From the NCBI GenBank assembly GCA_903827375.1, contig CAIKHZ010000290.1, forward strand, positions 1 to 42,624: 42,624 nucleotides of DNA, written 5' to 3'. Shown piece after piece: positions 26,016 to 32,466 of the stretch (its first letter is position 1; each line of letters starts with the position of its first letter). This stretch comes from Akkermansiaceae bacterium. GTDB taxonomy: Bacteria > Verrucomicrobiota > Verrucomicrobiia > Verrucomicrobiales > Akkermansiaceae. The translations under genes and the position numbers were made by a program. The notes beneath the pieces are model-generated. The model made no database searches, had not been told where the DNA came from, and worked only from the letters and a program-made list of their open reading frames with translations.

Positions 26016-27596
26016 ATGCTAGTCAGTATTTTCAATGATGTCATTGGCCCGGTGATGCGCGGGCCATCCAGTTCACACTGTGCCGCCGCATTGCGCATCG
26101 GCCGTTTGGCCCGCGACCTGATGGACGCGGACTTCAGCGATGTTCTGGTTGAGTTCGACGTGAACGGCTCGCTGCCTAACACCCACGATACCCAGGGCTC
26201 TGATATGGGCCTGTTCGGCGGGTTGCTAGGTTGGGATGCGGCAGATGCACGCCTGCCGGACTCGCCGCAGGCGTTGCGCGCCGCCGGGGTTTGCCTCTCC
26301 ATCGAGACGGTGGACGCCGGGGATCCGCACCCTAACACCTATCGTCTCACGCTGCGAAGTTCTCGGGAAACTCATACCTTGCGGGCCATTTCGACCGGCG
26401 GCGGCATGATGGAAGTCATTGACCTCGATGGCTTTCCGGTATCGATGTTCGGTGATTGCTATCAGACTTTGTTGTGGGCGGAAGGACCGGCTGAGGAGCT
26501 AATCGCAGTGCTGGAAACCCGCTTCACTGCCGATGCCATCCTGCTCCACAAGACCGATGGCAGACAACTCATCGAAGTTAAAGCCCCGGAGTTTGTGAGT
26601 GATCATATTCTATCAAAGATTCCCGGCATCCGGTCGATTAAACGCTTGGGGCCGGTGCTGCCGGTCATGTCGCGCAAGGAAACGGCGGTGCCATTCGGCT
26701 CCTGCGCGGAAATGTTGGATCACGACGCCGGCCGCGGCACCCCATTGTGGCTGCTGGCCGTGGAATATGAGATGGCGCGCGGCGGGATCAGCGAGGCGGA
26801 GGTCGTCGCCAAGATGCTGGACATCGTGCGAATCGTGCGGCACTCCATTGCCGCTGGCATCGCCGGTACCCAGTACGACGACCGCGTGCTAGGCCACCAA
26901 TCCGGCCGCTTCGATGAATTGCTGAGAGCGGGAAAATTGCTAGATGGCGGTGCATTGAACCGCATCATCCTCTATGTCACGGCATTGATGGAAGTGAAAA
27001 GCTCGATGGGCGTGATCGTCGCCGCACCAACCGCCGGGGCCTGCGCGGCACTGCCCGGAGCGGTCATTGCGATGGCCGAAGCCATGGGCCTGGACGAGGA
27101 GGCGATGGCCAAGGCATTGTTAGCTAGCGGTCTCATCGGTGTCTTCATTGCCACCCGCTGGACGTTTGCCGCAGAAGTCGGCGGCTGCCAGGCCGAGGGG
27201 GGGTCCGCCGCAAGCATGGCCGCCGCCGCTCTGGTGACTCTAGCTGGCGGCACTCTGGCACAAGCCGTGGCTGCCTCCTCGATGGCCTTTCAAAACATGC
27301 TTGGTCTCATTTGTGATCCAGTGGCCAACCGCGTCGAAGTCCCCTGCCTCGGCAAAAACGTCATGGCCGCCAGCAACGCCTTGGCCTGCGCCAATATGGC
27401 CCTCGCCGGCTTCGACCCGATCATTCCGCTCGACGAAGTGATCGATAGTGCCAAGCACGTTGCCAGCCAGATGCCGCGCGAAGTCCGCTGCACCAACCTC
27501 GGCGGCCTGTCCATCACTCCCACCGCCATCGCCCTCGAAGCCAAACTCGCCGCCCGCCGCGCCAGCAGTTGCGGCACCGGTTGCGGCTGCGGCTGA
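26016..27596 (+). CDS. sdaA: L-serine ammonia-lyase, iron-sulfur dependent, single chain
   Basis: From ATG 26016 the enzyme is 526 residues and deaminates L-serine to pyruvate and ammonia using a [4Fe-4S] cluster. The beta domain comes first (SIFNDVIGPVMRGPSSSHCA, GSLPNTHDTQGSDMGLFGGL), followed by the alpha domain (MGVIVAAPTAGACAALPG). Cluster cysteines correspond to those in AAEVGGCQAEGG, LICDPVANRVEVPC and the preceding segment. The C-terminus ends in a cysteine-rich SSCGTGCGCG. In Legionella L-SD a C-terminal cysteine occupies the active site, so this tail may be comparable. The long in-frame extension upstream overlaps the GH95 gene and was rejected. Spacing of 14 bases before and 15 after suggests co-transcription. 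Confidence 0.9.
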   Translation: MLVSIFNDVIGPVMRGPSSSHCAAALRIGRLARDLMDADFSDVLVEFDVNGSLPNTHDTQGSDMGLFGGLLGWDAADARLPDSPQALRAAGVCLSIETVDAGDPHPNTYRLTLRSSRETHTLRAISTGGGMMEVIDLDGFPVSMFGDCYQTLLWAEGPAEELIAVLETRFTADAILLHKTDGRQLIEVKAPEFVSDHILSKIPGIRSIKRLGPVLPVMSRKETAVPFGSCAEMLDHDAGRGTPLWLLAVEYEMARGGISEAEVVAKMLDIVRIVRHSIAAGIAGTQYDDRVLGHQSGRFDELLRAGKLLDGGALNRIILYVTALMEVKSSMGVIVAAPTAGACAALPGAVIAMAEAMGLDEEAMAKALLASGLIGVFIATRWTFAAEVGGCQAEGGSAASMAAAALVTLAGGTLAQAVAASSMAFQNMLGLICDPVANRVEVPCLGKNVMAASNALACANMALAGFDPIIPLDEVIDSAKHVASQMPREVRCTNLGGLSITPTAIALEAKLAARRASSCGTGCGCG

Positions 27597-27611
27597 TGCT
27601 CCCAAGTGATC

Positions 27612-29327
27612 ATGCCTCAACCCTATCTGGACCGCACTTCTCCTGAGTTATTCTCTTCAGACGTCTTTCTCGGCGCGGACGTCGAGCGAATGAAATCCTC
27701 CTCAGGACAAGAACGCGGGGCGATTTTCACCCGCCCGGAGGTGGTTTGCTTCATCCTCGATCTAGCTGACTACACCGCTGATAAGCCGTTGTGGAAATTT
27801 CGCTTGCTGGAGCCATCCTTTGGCACAGGGGATTTTCTTTTGTCAGCGATCGAGCGGCTTCTCATTTCCGCCTCCCGCGACAACATTCCAGCAATCCAAC
27901 TTTCGGGCGCGATCCGCGCGATTGAACTTCACCGCGAGACGTTTGTTGCCACCCGCCAACGGGTTTTCACTTTGCTTGTCGCGTTTGGCATGACGCATCC
28001 GGACGCAGTTGAATTGGCCGATGCATGGATTAGCAACGGGGATTTTCTATTGGAAAATTTGCCTGAAAACTTTGATTTTGTAGTCGGAAATCCACCCTAT
28101 GTCCGGCAGGAAATGATTCCGGCACCTTTGCTTGCGGAATACCGCCGACGCTACACCAGCCTATATGATCGCGCCGATCTGTATGTGCCGTTCATCGAGC
28201 GGTCTTTGCAACTCTTGAGCAACGGTGGGGTGCTTGGCTTCATTTGTTCTGATCGCTGGATGAAAAACCGTTACGGCGGACCCTTGCGGCAATTGGTCTC
28301 ACGAAACTACACCCTCAAGTATTATATCGATATGGTTGGTACCCATGCGTTTCAATCCGAGGTTGTCGCCTATCCAGCCATCACCGTCATTGAGCGAGGA
28401 AAAATGGGCCGCTCTCGTATTGCCCATCGCCCGGAAGTAACAACCGAATCATTAGCTCGTCTGCGCGACCAAATCACTGGCCCTACCCAATACTTCACTG
28501 ACACGATTTTCGAGATATCCGGTGTCACAATAGACCAGCGCCCATGGCTGCTAGAGGCTGATGCCCAATCATCTCTGTCGCTTGTGCGGCGACTCGAAGC
28601 GGAGTTTCCCACTCTCGAAGATGCCGGTTGCAGCGTCGGCATTGGTGTTGCTACCGGCGCTGACAAGGTCTTCATCGGCCCAATGGCTGATCTAGCAGTG
28701 GAAGACGAGCGCAAGCTGCCACTGGTCATGACCCGTGACCTTCTCAATGGTGCCGTCCATTGGCATGGTCTCGGCGTGGTGAACCCGTTTGAAGAGGATG
28801 GCTCGCTTGCCGACTTCGCCCGTTACCCACTCTTCGCCGCCTTCATGGAAAAGCATGCAGCCCAATTGAAGGCCCGTCACTGTGCCCAGCGCGGAAATGG
28901 CTCGTGGTATCGCACGATTGATAGGATCACCCCCTCATTGGCCCGCACGCCAAAACTGCTCATTCCTGATATTAAGGGCTCGGCCCACATTGTCCTCGAA
29001 GATGGGCTACTCTATCCCCATCACAATCTCTACTTCATCGTGGCTAAAGAATGGCCTCTTCCAGCGCTGCAAGCAGTGCTTCGGGCCGGTATTGCACACC
29101 TCTTCGTGCGTGCCTATTCGACCAAGATGCACGGCGGTTGCCTCCGGTTCCAAGCCCAATACCTCCGCCGAATTCGTCTGCCGCATTGGCGGGATATCTC
29201 CATCGACAACCAACAAGCACTTGGATCTGCCGCCGCTAGTAATGACGTGGATACGGCGCTTGCCATCGTAGGCCAAATCTATCATCTTGACCCAACGGAG
29301 AAACAATATCTAACTGAAGCTAAATAA
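27612..29327 (+). CDS. N6-adenine DNA methyltransferase, XhoI/PaeR7I-type
   Basis: This 571-residue DNA methyltransferase transfers methyl from SAM to adenine N6. The SAM motif is [13 protein letters not shown] (about 66-78), and the catalytic NPPY is at 160-163 ([12 protein letters not shown]). A TaqI-like target-recognition domain follows (SFSYS-type end here reads [15 protein letters not shown]). Because the next frame begins like an XhoI/PaeR7I endonuclease, its likely target is CTCGAG; this is inference. Codon use is visibly more AT-rich than in neighbouring genes (for example around 28050-28090), consistent with horizontal transfer. A GTG two codons upstream is an alternative start. Only one base separates it from the next frame. 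Confidence 0.85.
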
Positions 29328-29328
29328 A

Positions 29329-29532
29329 ATGGGTCTGTATCTCGCAAATTCCGAAGCCAAGACCAAGGCGGCAGTCAAAGCCTTCTGGAAAGGCCGCAGC
29401 GCCGCGCACAGCAAACAAATTGAGTCAGGCAAGGCTGATCAAGGCGGACGTTCAGCCGTCACCGGCGGCAAGAACATGGACGGCATTACCATCACGCCCC
29501 GAGACGCTGGCGGTCGGCTAACAACCCGCTGA
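29329..29532 (+). pseudogene. Truncated XhoI/PaeR7I-family restriction endonuclease
   Basis: This 67-codon frame starts one base after the methyltransferase stop. Its first 52 residues read like the N-terminus of R.PaeR7I/R.XhoI: an AVKAFWKGR helix, Q[11 protein letters not shown], then [11 protein letters not shown]. The normal enzyme is about 245 residues and contains its catalytic D-(x)n-ExK further on. Here similarity ends at about base 29484 and the frame continues for 15 unrelated codons antisense to the tail of the DUF58 gene. So roughly three quarters of the gene, with the whole active site, is missing. I infer a 3' deletion with a junction at 29485-29492. No nuclease activity is expected. 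A short functional peptide is possible but unlikely. Confidence 0.75.
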
Positions 29533-30391
29533 GAAACACGGCGGGGGGCTGTTCGGTGGTGGCAATGCGGTAATCCACCCGCAGGGCACCGCAGCGAGCC
29601 CGGAAGCCGGCAATGGCGGAATCGATGGCGTCACGGTAGGCCCGGCGCACCAGCGCGGCGTCGGCCTCGAGGCGCTCGCCGGTTTCCATGTCGATGAAGT
29701 CGGACACACCGTCGAAGGGCAGCGTGAGCTCGGCCGGGTCCAGGACGTGAACAAGCACCACATCGTGGCCACGACGGCGGAAATGGGCCAGTGCGCGAAA
29801 AACCGCCTCGGGATCATCCAACAAATCAGACAACATGAACACCAAACCGCGCCGGGCCATGCCTTCGGCGAGGGCCTCGAGGGCCTTGCCGGTATCGGTT
29901 CGGCCGGCCGGTTGATGGGCTCCAAGGGCGTCGAGGAAATTTCTAACATGACGACTGCCGCCCTTGGTGGGCAGCCAGCGGCGGACTTGGTCGTCGTAGA
30001 TGACGAGGCCGACGGAGTCCTGTTGGTGGTGGGCGAGATAGGCGACTGCGGCGGCGAGTTCACGGGCGAAATCAAACTTGCTGGTTAGGCCGGAATGCTG
30101 GAATGCCATGGAGGCGGAGGCATCCAGCACGAGGTGGACGCGCAGGCTGGTTTCCTCCTGATATTGCTTGATGAAGTAGCGTTCGCTGCGGCCAAATAAC
30201 TTCCAATCGAGGTGGCGGAGGTTGTCGCCTTGGACATAATCCCGGTGGTCACGGAATTCAACGCTAGCCCCTTTGAGCACACTCGAGTGACGACCGGCCC
30301 GCCCGCCCTCCGCAGTCCAGCGTGAGCCCAGCGCAAGGTGATCAAGACGGCGCATCGTCTCGACTGATAGAAAATCACTGAAGGTGGACAT
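29492..30391 (-). CDS. DUF58 domain protein (VWA-like)
   Basis: This 299-residue protein has the DUF58 core near the start: [17 protein letters not shown], then [20 protein letters not shown] von Willebrand A-like fold follows, with a MIDAS-like LVLDASASM (about 96-104). Another typical stretch is [19 protein letters not shown]. In many bacteria DUF58 proteins are encoded with MoxR-type AAA ATPases and Bat proteins and are thought to help complex assembly or stress tolerance; no MoxR gene is present in this window. Its stop codon lies within or beside the 15-codon non-homologous tail of the restriction-enzyme remnant. A GGATGAA-type heptamer array sits 10 bases before the start. Confidence 0.85.
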
Positions 30392-30400
30392 TTCTAATGG

Positions 30401-30433
30401 ATGAAGGATGAAGGATGAAGGATGAAGGATGAA
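30401..30433. repeat. Heptanucleotide tandem repeat abutting the DUF58 start
   Basis: Four exact ATGAAGG units (30401-30428) plus five bases of a fifth. On the minus strand the array ends about 10 bases before the DUF58 ATG at 30391, in the position of a ribosome-binding site. Confidence 0.85.
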
Positions 30434-30500
30434 TTATTAGATCTAGAGTCCTTGAAAAGCAAAGTTGCTGTCGTTAGGTCAAGTTTTCTGCTCTTGGGCG

Positions 30501-30531
30501 TTCGGCGAGCGGATCGACCGAGCTCGCCGAA
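30501..30531. repeat. 10-bp inverted repeat
   Basis: TTCGGCGAGC (30501-30510) and GCTCGCCGAA (30522-30531) form a perfect 10-bp stem around an 11-base loop in the DUF4159-DUF58 gap. It shares words with the direct repeat at 21146-21189. Confidence 0.6.
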
Positions 30532-30554
30532 GTCTCAGCCGAGCCGTCTTCAAG

Positions 30555-30575
30555 TCTTGCGTCTTGCGTCTTGGG
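30555..30575. repeat. Heptanucleotide tandem repeat, three copies
   Basis: TCTTGCG at 30555-30561 and 30562-30568, followed by TCTTGGG at 30569-30575. It is located 18 bases past the DUF4159 stop codon on the minus strand. Confidence 0.65.
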
Positions 30576-30592
30576 TCTGAGGCGCAGCCTCG

Positions 30593-32068
30593 CTAGCGGA
30601 CAAGTGCATGGAAGAGGATGTTAACGCCGATGGCGGTGGAGTCGGCGGCCTCGTAACCGATGGCGTATGGGGCGGGAGCCTGCTCCCAGCCGGCGGCCAG
30701 GTCGCGTGGGCAATAGATCACGGCGGTGGCACCATTGACCTCGGCAGCCAACAACTCCGGAGCAGAGGAGCTTTTTTTGTCGAGTTGCGCGGCGAGGGCG
30801 GGACGTAACTTGACCGTCGCCACTTCGTTAGGTTGGTGGAAAAGTGAGGCGGAGGCGGGCAGAGGCAGCAGCGGATGGTCGGGCAGCACCTTGGCCATTT
30901 CCGCGCGGAAGGCCGTGTCGAAAGTCGCGCGGCCATCGCCAGCCTCGGCAAACAGGACGCCACCCTTCATGAGGAATTGCCGGAGATTGGCGCGTTCGTT
31001 TTCGCCGAGCGAAAAATCCGTGGTGCCAGTTAGATAGAGCAAGGGTGTCTCGAACATGGATGCGTCGGACAAGGCAACCTCGCGCCATTCGAACGAGACC
31101 GGGGCACCGGTTTGCTCGTTGAATTTCCGCAACAACATCGGTAGCGCAGCTGGCCGAGTTTTCCACGGACCGACATGGGCGACCCAACCAACGCGCAGGC
31201 TACCGGCCTTGGAGCCGCCGGCATCGGCGAGTTCGACGCTCTTGCCAGCACTCCGGCCGGCCTCCTGCATGGCGGTGACGTACGAGAGCAGGTTGGCACC
31301 GAGGCGTCGGGCGTCGGCATCCTCGTAGCCCCAGCTGTCATGGCGGTTTTTTTCCCAGCCCATGGCGATGTCGAAGCGCGAGATGATGATGGCGCTGCGG
31401 TTGTCTATATCCACGGCGTCGATCCACGGATAGGAGTCACTGACCACGCCGTCGGCGATGGCCCGCTCGCGGTATTTCACTTGCTTGATGTCGTTGTAGG
31501 CGTGAAATAGCGGATGGTCGAGGCGCAGTCGATAGAGCGGGCTTTCCGGCAGAACCTGCCGCGCGGCTTCCATCGCGGATTGATAGAAATCGGGGTGACC
31601 GACGAGCGCATTAAAGATGACGGTGCCGCCGTTGCGGAGGTACTCGCGAAGGCGGGCGGCTTCCTTGGGTTCGAGTTTAAACGGTTTGTAGCCGGACCGA
31701 TAGAGGACAGGGTTTTCGCGTGGGTTGGTGGAAATTTCAGCCCAGGATTTTATGTTAGATGTGAAGCTGGCACCCATTTCCCCGCTCATCCACTCGAGTA
31801 GTTTTTTCAAATCGTGAGGTGTGCGGGCCCAGTCCTCGGCATCGGCAGTGCGGATTTTGGTTAGCAGCACGGGCGGCTGCGGTGGGTTCTTGCGTTCTTG
31901 ACGCTTCTGCGGAACCACCGGATAAGGGAGCGGCGGCATCCCCTCCGATGACGAAACTTGGGCCGGTGGCGGCTTGGGTTCTTCCAAAGGCGGAGGTTCC
32001 GGCGGCTTTGGGACGGCAAGCGCCGCCGCCGCGAAAACCAGCCCCGACAAAGATGTTAGTAACTTCAT
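30593..32068 (-). CDS. Exported protein with two tandem DUF4159 domains
   Basis: From ATG 32066-32068 (MKLLTSLSGLVFAAAALAVP, a signal peptide) the protein is 491 residues; the upstream in-frame ATG would bury this signal. A proline-rich segment (PKPPEPPPLEEPKPPP) follows. DUF4159 copy one spans about residues 95-270 (TPHDLKKLLEWMSGEMGASF, LREYLRNGGTVIFNALVGHP). Copy two covers about 300-491 (LLRKFNEQTGAPVSFEW, LRQFLMKGGVLFAEAGDGRA). The two copies share the pattern 'leucine-rich helix, then R-x-FL/YL-x-x-GG-x-x-F', so an internal duplication is likely. The family has a glutamine-amidotransferase-like fold without a known activity and often sits with DUF58 and MoxR genes. Here it is followed by DUF58 after 201 bases. 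Confidence 0.82.
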   Translation of the reverse strand: MKLLTSLSGLVFAAAALAVPKPPEPPPLEEPKPPPAQVSSSEGMPPLPYPVVPQKRQERKNPPQPPVLLTKIRTADAEDWARTPHDLKKLLEWMSGEMGASFTSNIKSWAEISTNPRENPVLYRSGYKPFKLEPKEAARLREYLRNGGTVIFNALVGHPDFYQSAMEAARQVLPESPLYRLRLDHPLFHAYNDIKQVKYRERAIADGVVSDSYPWIDAVDIDNRSAIIISRFDIAMGWEKNRHDSWGYEDADARRLGANLLSYVTAMQEAGRSAGKSVELADAGGSKAGSLRVGWVAHVGPWKTRPAALPMLLRKFNEQTGAPVSFEWREVALSDASMFETPLLYLTGTTDFSLGENERANLRQFLMKGGVLFAEAGDGRATFDTAFRAEMAKVLPDHPLLPLPASASLFHQPNEVATVKLRPALAAQLDKKSSSAPELLAAEVNGATAVIYCPRDLAAGWEQAPAPYAIGYEAADSTAIGVNILFHALVR

Positions 32069-32466
32069 TTTTAACTTGGAAGCTGGGATTGTAAAAACAA
32101 TTGGGTCAGCTGCGGAAGGCACAAATTGAACGAACTTGGGTTTCGGTTCCATGGCTGGGTCAATGATGGACTGGATTGCAGGAAATGAAAGTCTCAAGAT
32201 TTAGCGGCTCATGCGACGCCCTCGCAAGGAATGCGGCGGGAAGGGCGGAGGGGCTACTCGGCGGTCACAGACACGCCTCTATCAACCGACAAACAGACTT
32301 GTGCGGCTCCTGAGCTTGACCGCTGAGTTCTGGGCATAACGATCGAGCCAAAAACGCGCTTCCTCAACACGAGGGCCTCGCTCCCTGTTTGGAAAATATG
32401 GCTTTGTCGCGGGGGCCTAAGCCGCTAGACCTTGACGTCGCCGAAGCGGTGGTTCAGCCTGCGGCG
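32069..32466. other. Divergent intergenic region between DUF4159 and DUF3142-like genes
   Basis: About 400 bases between divergent starts. The right-hand 78 bases could be coding if the DUF3142-like gene begins at 32389. I see no clear sigma-70 boxes, tRNA or repeat. Promoters for both genes should lie here. Confidence 0.4.

Follow-up and report, generated by a model that had tools for sequence, protein, structure and literature searches.

The PaeR7I restriction-modification system recognizes CTCGAG, where 6-methyladenine is placed at the fifth base, and it is described as causing post-segregational killing in Escherichia coli (PMC3031569). Another report states that deletion of its methyltransferase gene did not kill the cells carrying the system (PMC3488263). 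As these published accounts of losing the methyltransferase (M) first differ, an order of decay in which the endonuclease (R) goes before M need not be forced by the toxicity of R. Restriction-modification systems can act as addictive elements, and how a host sheds one is therefore a real question. As for solitary methyltransferase genes, a study of 43 pan-genomes reports that they rarely derive from the decay of complete systems (PMC4176335).

Here, we describe a locus in a draft genome (6.1 Mb, 370 contigs, 96% complete) that very probably represents the in-place decay of a Type II restriction-modification system of the PaeR7I/XhoI type, with M left as an orphan predicted to mark CTCGAG. The window, which is the whole stretch of DNA analyzed, equals contig C290 with a length of 42,624 bases. 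A search of the restriction enzyme and methyltransferase literature (PaeR7I, orphan methyltransferases) showed none on this locus among the listed titles. Its M shares 55.5% identity over 96% of its length with the product annotated as paeR7IM on plasmid pRSB105, and the order of M and then R is the same, with paeR7IR lying directly after paeR7IM on that plasmid. The locus differs from PaeR7I in that its R is cut to 52 codons and in that a serine dehydratase gene, instead of an invertase gene such as paeR7IN, precedes M. Among relatives with a complete system, L022 (G454:C8, Verrucomicrobia MAG LacPavin_0419_WC70L_MAG_62_22) is the nearest. Its M is 80% identical to that of the window, whereas its R retains the full length of 244 aa and its gene neighborhood is a different one. 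This intact R is about 63% identical to plasmid R proteins, some of which are annotated as "PaeR7I family." Like other solitary Type II methyltransferases, the window M has no cognate R found in its genome; in contrast to them, an R remnant is still attached to it, so that the origin by decay is visible.

Results

An open methyltransferase gene is followed by a stub of the endonuclease gene

The system is placed between an L-serine dehydratase gene (SDA, with the Pfam domains SDH_alpha and SDH_beta; positions 26,016 to 27,596, plus strand, start approximate), an upstream neighbor outside the system, and a convergent gene for a DUF58 (VWA-like) protein of 299 aa (29,492 to 30,391, minus strand). 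The M gene (27,612 to 29,327, plus strand) encodes 571 aa, and its frame is open from the ATG at 27,612 to the stop ending at 29,327, in line with the initial annotation, which had called the gene intact; the list of open reading frames starts the same frame at an upstream GTG. M scored 748 bits against the PADLOC model MTase_II PDLC03313 and 87.9 and 24.9 bits against the Pfam families Eco57I and N6_Mtase, both above the cut-off. A search of NCBIfam gave no match above the cut-off for M and none at all for the 67-codon frame that follows it. M carries the motif EPSFGTG at residue 67 and NPPY at residue 160, and it belongs to the Type II adenine-N6 DNA methyltransferases of the PaeR7I kind. 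Its dN/dS was 0.115 in comparison to L022; two other pairs gave values of 0.136 and 0.095. With L024 as the outgroup, 28 changes were exclusive to the window and 27 to L022; at 235 otherwise invariant columns, the counts were 4 and 2, respectively. The sequence of the window M thus suggests no clear relaxation of constraint.

The 67-codon frame (29,329 to 29,532, plus strand; 67 aa) matched PF04555 (XhoI) with 30.1 bits (cut-off, 25) at profile positions 1 to 25 of 191, and PADLOC REase_II with an E value of 2e-14 at profile positions 1 to 51 of 247; two PADLOC REase_II models matched its first 53 to 54 residues. Comparison with the intact L022 R assigned codons 1 to 52 only (29,329 to 29,484) to R, and 48 of these 52 residues (92%) were identical, in agreement with the roughly 52 R residues recognized initially. 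The homology stops at 29,484 and is followed by a junction of 7 nt (29,485 to 29,491), which leads to the DUF58 stop codon (29,492 to 29,494, minus strand). The position of this stop codon was conserved in 11 of 11 relatives read. The tail of the frame (29,492 to 29,532) is not homologous to R, and the last ~13 codons of the frame run antisense to the DUF58 3′ end, as also described in the initial annotation. The repeat list contained no long repeats at the junction.

Beside M, no full-length XhoI-family R with catalytic residues was found: residues 1 to 52 of 244 are kept, and D91, E105, and K107 are gone. The stub retains an N-terminal helix and lacks the predicted active site. When the own genome was searched with a full-length R at E values of up to 10, the stub alone was matched, and a PF04555 search gave the same result; no cognate R was therefore found within a 96%-complete draft, in which a copy elsewhere could be missed. 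We also considered the reciprocal product of the break, i.e., the remainder of R at another site. It was found at an E value of up to 10 nowhere in the own genome, and a same-genus genome (G028) yielded, besides the stub, which was matched in two pieces, a single weak match (E value, 0.2; 34%; residues 133 to 196). Taken together, the PADLOC and Pfam matches, the comparison with L022, and the genome search bear out the initial annotation, in which the locus was read as a decayed XhoI/PaeR7I system whose methyltransferase is orphaned. The M of this lineage is predicted to be an orphan m6A methyltransferase that marks CTCGAG, a specificity deduced from homology, both that of M and that of the R stub. 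It should be considered that assignment of motifs by homology is reported to have failed for some environmental methyltransferases (PMC6329791).

The predicted active site of R lies in the missing part

D91, E105, and K107 (L022 R numbering; D91...E105-x-K107) were invariant in 35 aligned R proteins and were among the columns that were at least 97% identical in 64 R proteins. In an AlphaFold model of the L022 R (mean pLDDT, 90.5), these residues are located next to strand 92-96 and within strand 99-109, which is followed by a helix (114-137). The strand-strand-helix order and the invariant residues fit a PD-(D/E)xK core. A Foldseek search with the model gave no PDB match at an E value of ≤0.001; weak top matches (E values, 0.03 to 0.4) included the nucleases BstEII, BsmI, FokI, and MGME1, which presumably have the PD-(D/E)xK core in common. 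As these matches are weak, the assignment of a nuclease fold to R is based chiefly on its family, the motif, and the model. Sequence searches of solved structures with the stub and with the intact R resulted in no match. The earlier statement that the active site was lost agrees with the position of all three predicted residues in the missing part.

A second genome carries the same junction and has lost most of M

The same-genus genome G028 contains a contig (G028:C659, locus L125) of 3,464 bases that comprises DUF4159, DUF58, the R stub, M, and, up to the contig border, the end of SDA. Its junction between R and DUF58 is the same as that of the window except for one 1-nt deletion (29,486). 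The G028 stub differs from that of the window by one substitution (29,406) and one frame-breaking 1-nt deletion (29,383). In addition, the G028 M lacks 1,499 bp (27,711 to 29,209), and a 5-nt repeat (GACAA) is found at the break. Since G028 has the same junction together with a deletion in M, the most parsimonious order has R broken prior to the separation of the window and G028 copies and M lost later in G028.

The two contigs were then compared on both sides of the junction. The genes past it were 93 to 95% identical, and synonymous differences per site amounted to 0.19 for DUF58 and 0.22 for DUF4159, in contrast to 0.03 at the 3′ end of SDA and, for the two remaining pieces of M, 0.00 and 0.04 (24 to 39 synonymous sites each). 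One substitution in the 156 nt of the R stub also differed from the DUF58 synonymous sites (Fisher test, P ~ 8e-10, with the stub entered as 1 of 157). The less diverged block comprises window positions 27,439 to 29,491, and the similarity to G028:C659 changes close to the junction. A stub that had been decaying freely since the divergence of the flanks should differ far more, and the simplest and likeliest reading is therefore that, after their split, the two lineages exchanged an SDA-M-R block in a recent event. Compared to the L022 R, the stub showed a pN of 0.033 and a pS of 0.528. These values and the low divergence of the block suggest that R was functional until recently and that the truncation may be recent.

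The event that joined R to DUF58 may have been larger than a deletion

In none of 11 same-genus loci, examined over 2.2 to 4.0 kb beyond DUF58, was SDA found next to DUF58. The sequence after DUF58 contained a BatA-like frame (recognized by eye) in 5 of the 11 loci and other sequence in 6. Because SDA was not found beside DUF58 in these loci, the event that joined R codon 52 to the DUF58 3′ end may have been either a deletion or a larger rearrangement. The initially proposed deletion near 29,485 to 29,492 is therefore correct with respect to its place, whereas the event itself joined R to the DUF58 3′ end and may have been a larger rearrangement. A BatA-like gene is found on another contig of the own genome (C79), 55 nt from the contig start and behind a "caatcccc" repeat, and its G028 counterpart lies 142 nt from the start of G028:C205. 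We checked if the breakpoint had moved this gene; no R sequence was present in the short stretches upstream, either on C79 or on G028:C205. A DUF4159 frame adjoins DUF58 in 10 of the 11 same-genus loci read (window region, 29,492 to 32,197). A short tandem repeat of GGATGAA (30,399 to 30,428) is located just upstream of the DUF58 start, and a shorter version is present in G028:C659.

CTCGAG sites are neither avoided nor enriched

All six CTCGAG positions quoted initially (12,636, 14,381, 18,116, 23,107, 29,666, and 30,282) are present. Twelve sites were observed in the window, with 10.5 (standard deviation, 3.2) expected, and CTCGAG is neither avoided nor enriched there. Close pairs of CTCGAG in the genome were rarer than in a reversed-pattern control (7 versus 14 per strand). 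Enrichment or clustering of the motif was thus rejected on the basis of the counts in the window and in the genome.

R is decayed or absent at 15 of 79 related loci

A survey by similarity to one M yielded 80 M loci in GTDB genomes other than the window. A full R frame followed M in the same order in 64 of them. One locus (L030) was left out of the count since its R is cut by the contig end and reads on across the contig ends. In the 79 judgeable loci, R was decayed or absent in 15 cases, of which 11 had a partial R and the other 4 yielded none. Among the 15, L037, L072, L075, and L087 keep all 244 R residues with a frameshift or stop, which could be sequencing errors; counting losses of sequence only, with L094 included, resulted in 11 of 79. 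In L094, R lacks residues 1 to 51 and M runs into the contig end. At none of the 80 loci did the best matched stretch of M contain an internal stop, and the M match was shortened in three (L086, L094, and L100). The L086 match begins at query residue 65 and its upstream M start was not seen, so that this M may be broken too.

On a quick M tree, the 16 decayed cases (window included) correspond to 13 changes, at least 8 of which are forced by well-supported branches. The decayed cases are hardly clustered on this tree (14.9 changes on average after shuffling, with equally low values in 49 of 500 shuffles). Several close pairs were unlike in R: L040 is intact and L055 decayed, L026 is intact and L025 decayed, and L073 is intact and L099 lacks R. 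The survey was built through M and cannot show how often M goes first, which limits the R-first order as a general rule. For the reverse view, a phylum search of 387 genomes detected 23 XhoI-family R loci besides that of the window, 16 with and 7 without a match to this M (flanks of up to ~1.4 kb per side). Some of the seven (L104, L106, L107, L108, L109, L113, and L120) may have a methyltransferase of another family.

Two further observations were made. In an unrelated host (Pirellulaceae; L038, 5,660 to 5,872), R breaks at residue 50, at most two residues from residue 52 of the window, and the L083 R breaks at 43 to 57; the near-coincidence of the L038 and window breakpoints is probably due to chance. 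The XhoI-type M and R of L030 are carried by a contig of 5,422 bases with ends that overlap exactly by 127 nt. This contig is therefore circular or an assembly-graph loop, and it may be a small plasmid by which the system is carried within the same genus.

The distribution of M fits gain and loss

The initial annotation had taken the AT-richness of M to suggest acquisition by transfer. The composition was confirmed (GC content of 0.539 versus 0.591 for the rest of the window); however, in all 8 relatives compared, M likewise exceeded its flanks in AT content. The AT-richness is therefore largely a family trait and weak evidence for transfer. Patchy occurrence constitutes better evidence: a long DNA match to M was found in 6 of 73 same-genus genomes (own genome included), in addition to the G028 remnant. 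A protein search covering 36 other genomes of the same genus revealed a more distant M (38 to 39%) in four more (G015, G022, G031, and G035), and G015 and G035 also showed a match to the R stub at the M locus. The G454 copy, which is L022, has another gene neighborhood. This distribution fits gain and loss. In the M tree, the window copy falls into a well-supported group of 12 rows, of which the other 11 are all Verrucomicrobiota, and the source of the window M is thus likely to lie within this phylum. A phage source was also considered; 26 phage records matched M, none over 80% of the query, and 10 listed matches showed ~24% identity.

Discussion

In our preferred explanation, a break joined R codon 52 to the convergent DUF58 3′ end and removed everything beyond this codon, as the sequence shows. 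Restriction would have been lost because the predicted catalytic residues are gone with the rest of R. M would survive as an orphan m6A methyltransferase with putative CTCGAG specificity. With R gone, M would no longer be needed for protection of the chromosome and could be lost, as in G028. An R-first order would be expected, as loss of M under an active R should expose the chromosome to cutting.

An assembly or binning artifact, with an intact R adjoining M in the real genome, could be suspected in a draft fragmented into 370 contigs. We consider this very improbable, since the junction is common to a second same-genus genome that carries mutations of its own and since other R sequence was found in neither assembly, except for the weak match in G028 (E value, 0.2). 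It is at least as hard to believe that the 67-codon frame yields a small protein that still functions, with an N-terminal R domain kept, e.g., to regulate M. Its first 52 codons are in frame and close to L022; however, the G028 copy has the frame-breaking deletion in the stub and another deletion at the junction, the tail is antisense to DUF58, and the low divergence is explained by a recent truncation.

More weight can be given to the possibility that M is not a leftover and is kept by selection as a solitary, domesticated methyltransferase with a regulatory or protective role, which we nevertheless regard as unlikely. M is intact, with a low dN/dS and without a marked excess of changes on its branch, and orphan CTCGAG methyltransferases of Nocardia are described together with motif clusters between replication genes (PMC4752239). 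In the window genome, CTCGAG shows no enrichment in the window and its close pairs are rarer than in the control, and M has been lost in G028. Moreover, the truncation looks recent, as judged from the near-identity of the stub to that of G028 and its pN and pS values compared to L022, and this leaves too little time to tell. An intact M with near-equal branch counts is what is expected from recent orphaning, with or without a new function. Since the truncation may be recent, the intact M is no proof of domestication.

Under decay in place, which remains our favored reading, the locus holds an orphan methyltransferase of an ordinary kind, the cause of which is visible with unusual clarity. New here are the sister genome with a second decay step and the count of similar cases. 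For the family as a whole, we lean toward the view that XhoI-type systems have become solitary methyltransferases by in-place loss of R, repeatedly and recently, with both steps displayed on nearly identical DNA by the window and G028. The PaeR7I/XhoI-type family looks different in this respect from the conclusion reported for 43 pan-genomes, with the caveat that the loci were found through one M; if true, repeated in-place loss of R would contradict the rarity of an origin by decay as stated there (PMC4176335). The window and G028 together constitute an ordered, sequence-level record in which the endonuclease goes first and the methyltransferase second, and the fraction of loci with R decayed or absent provides a countable test of the in-place decay origin of solitary methyltransferases. 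For the organism itself, the prediction is that CTCGAG would carry an m6A mark without restriction.
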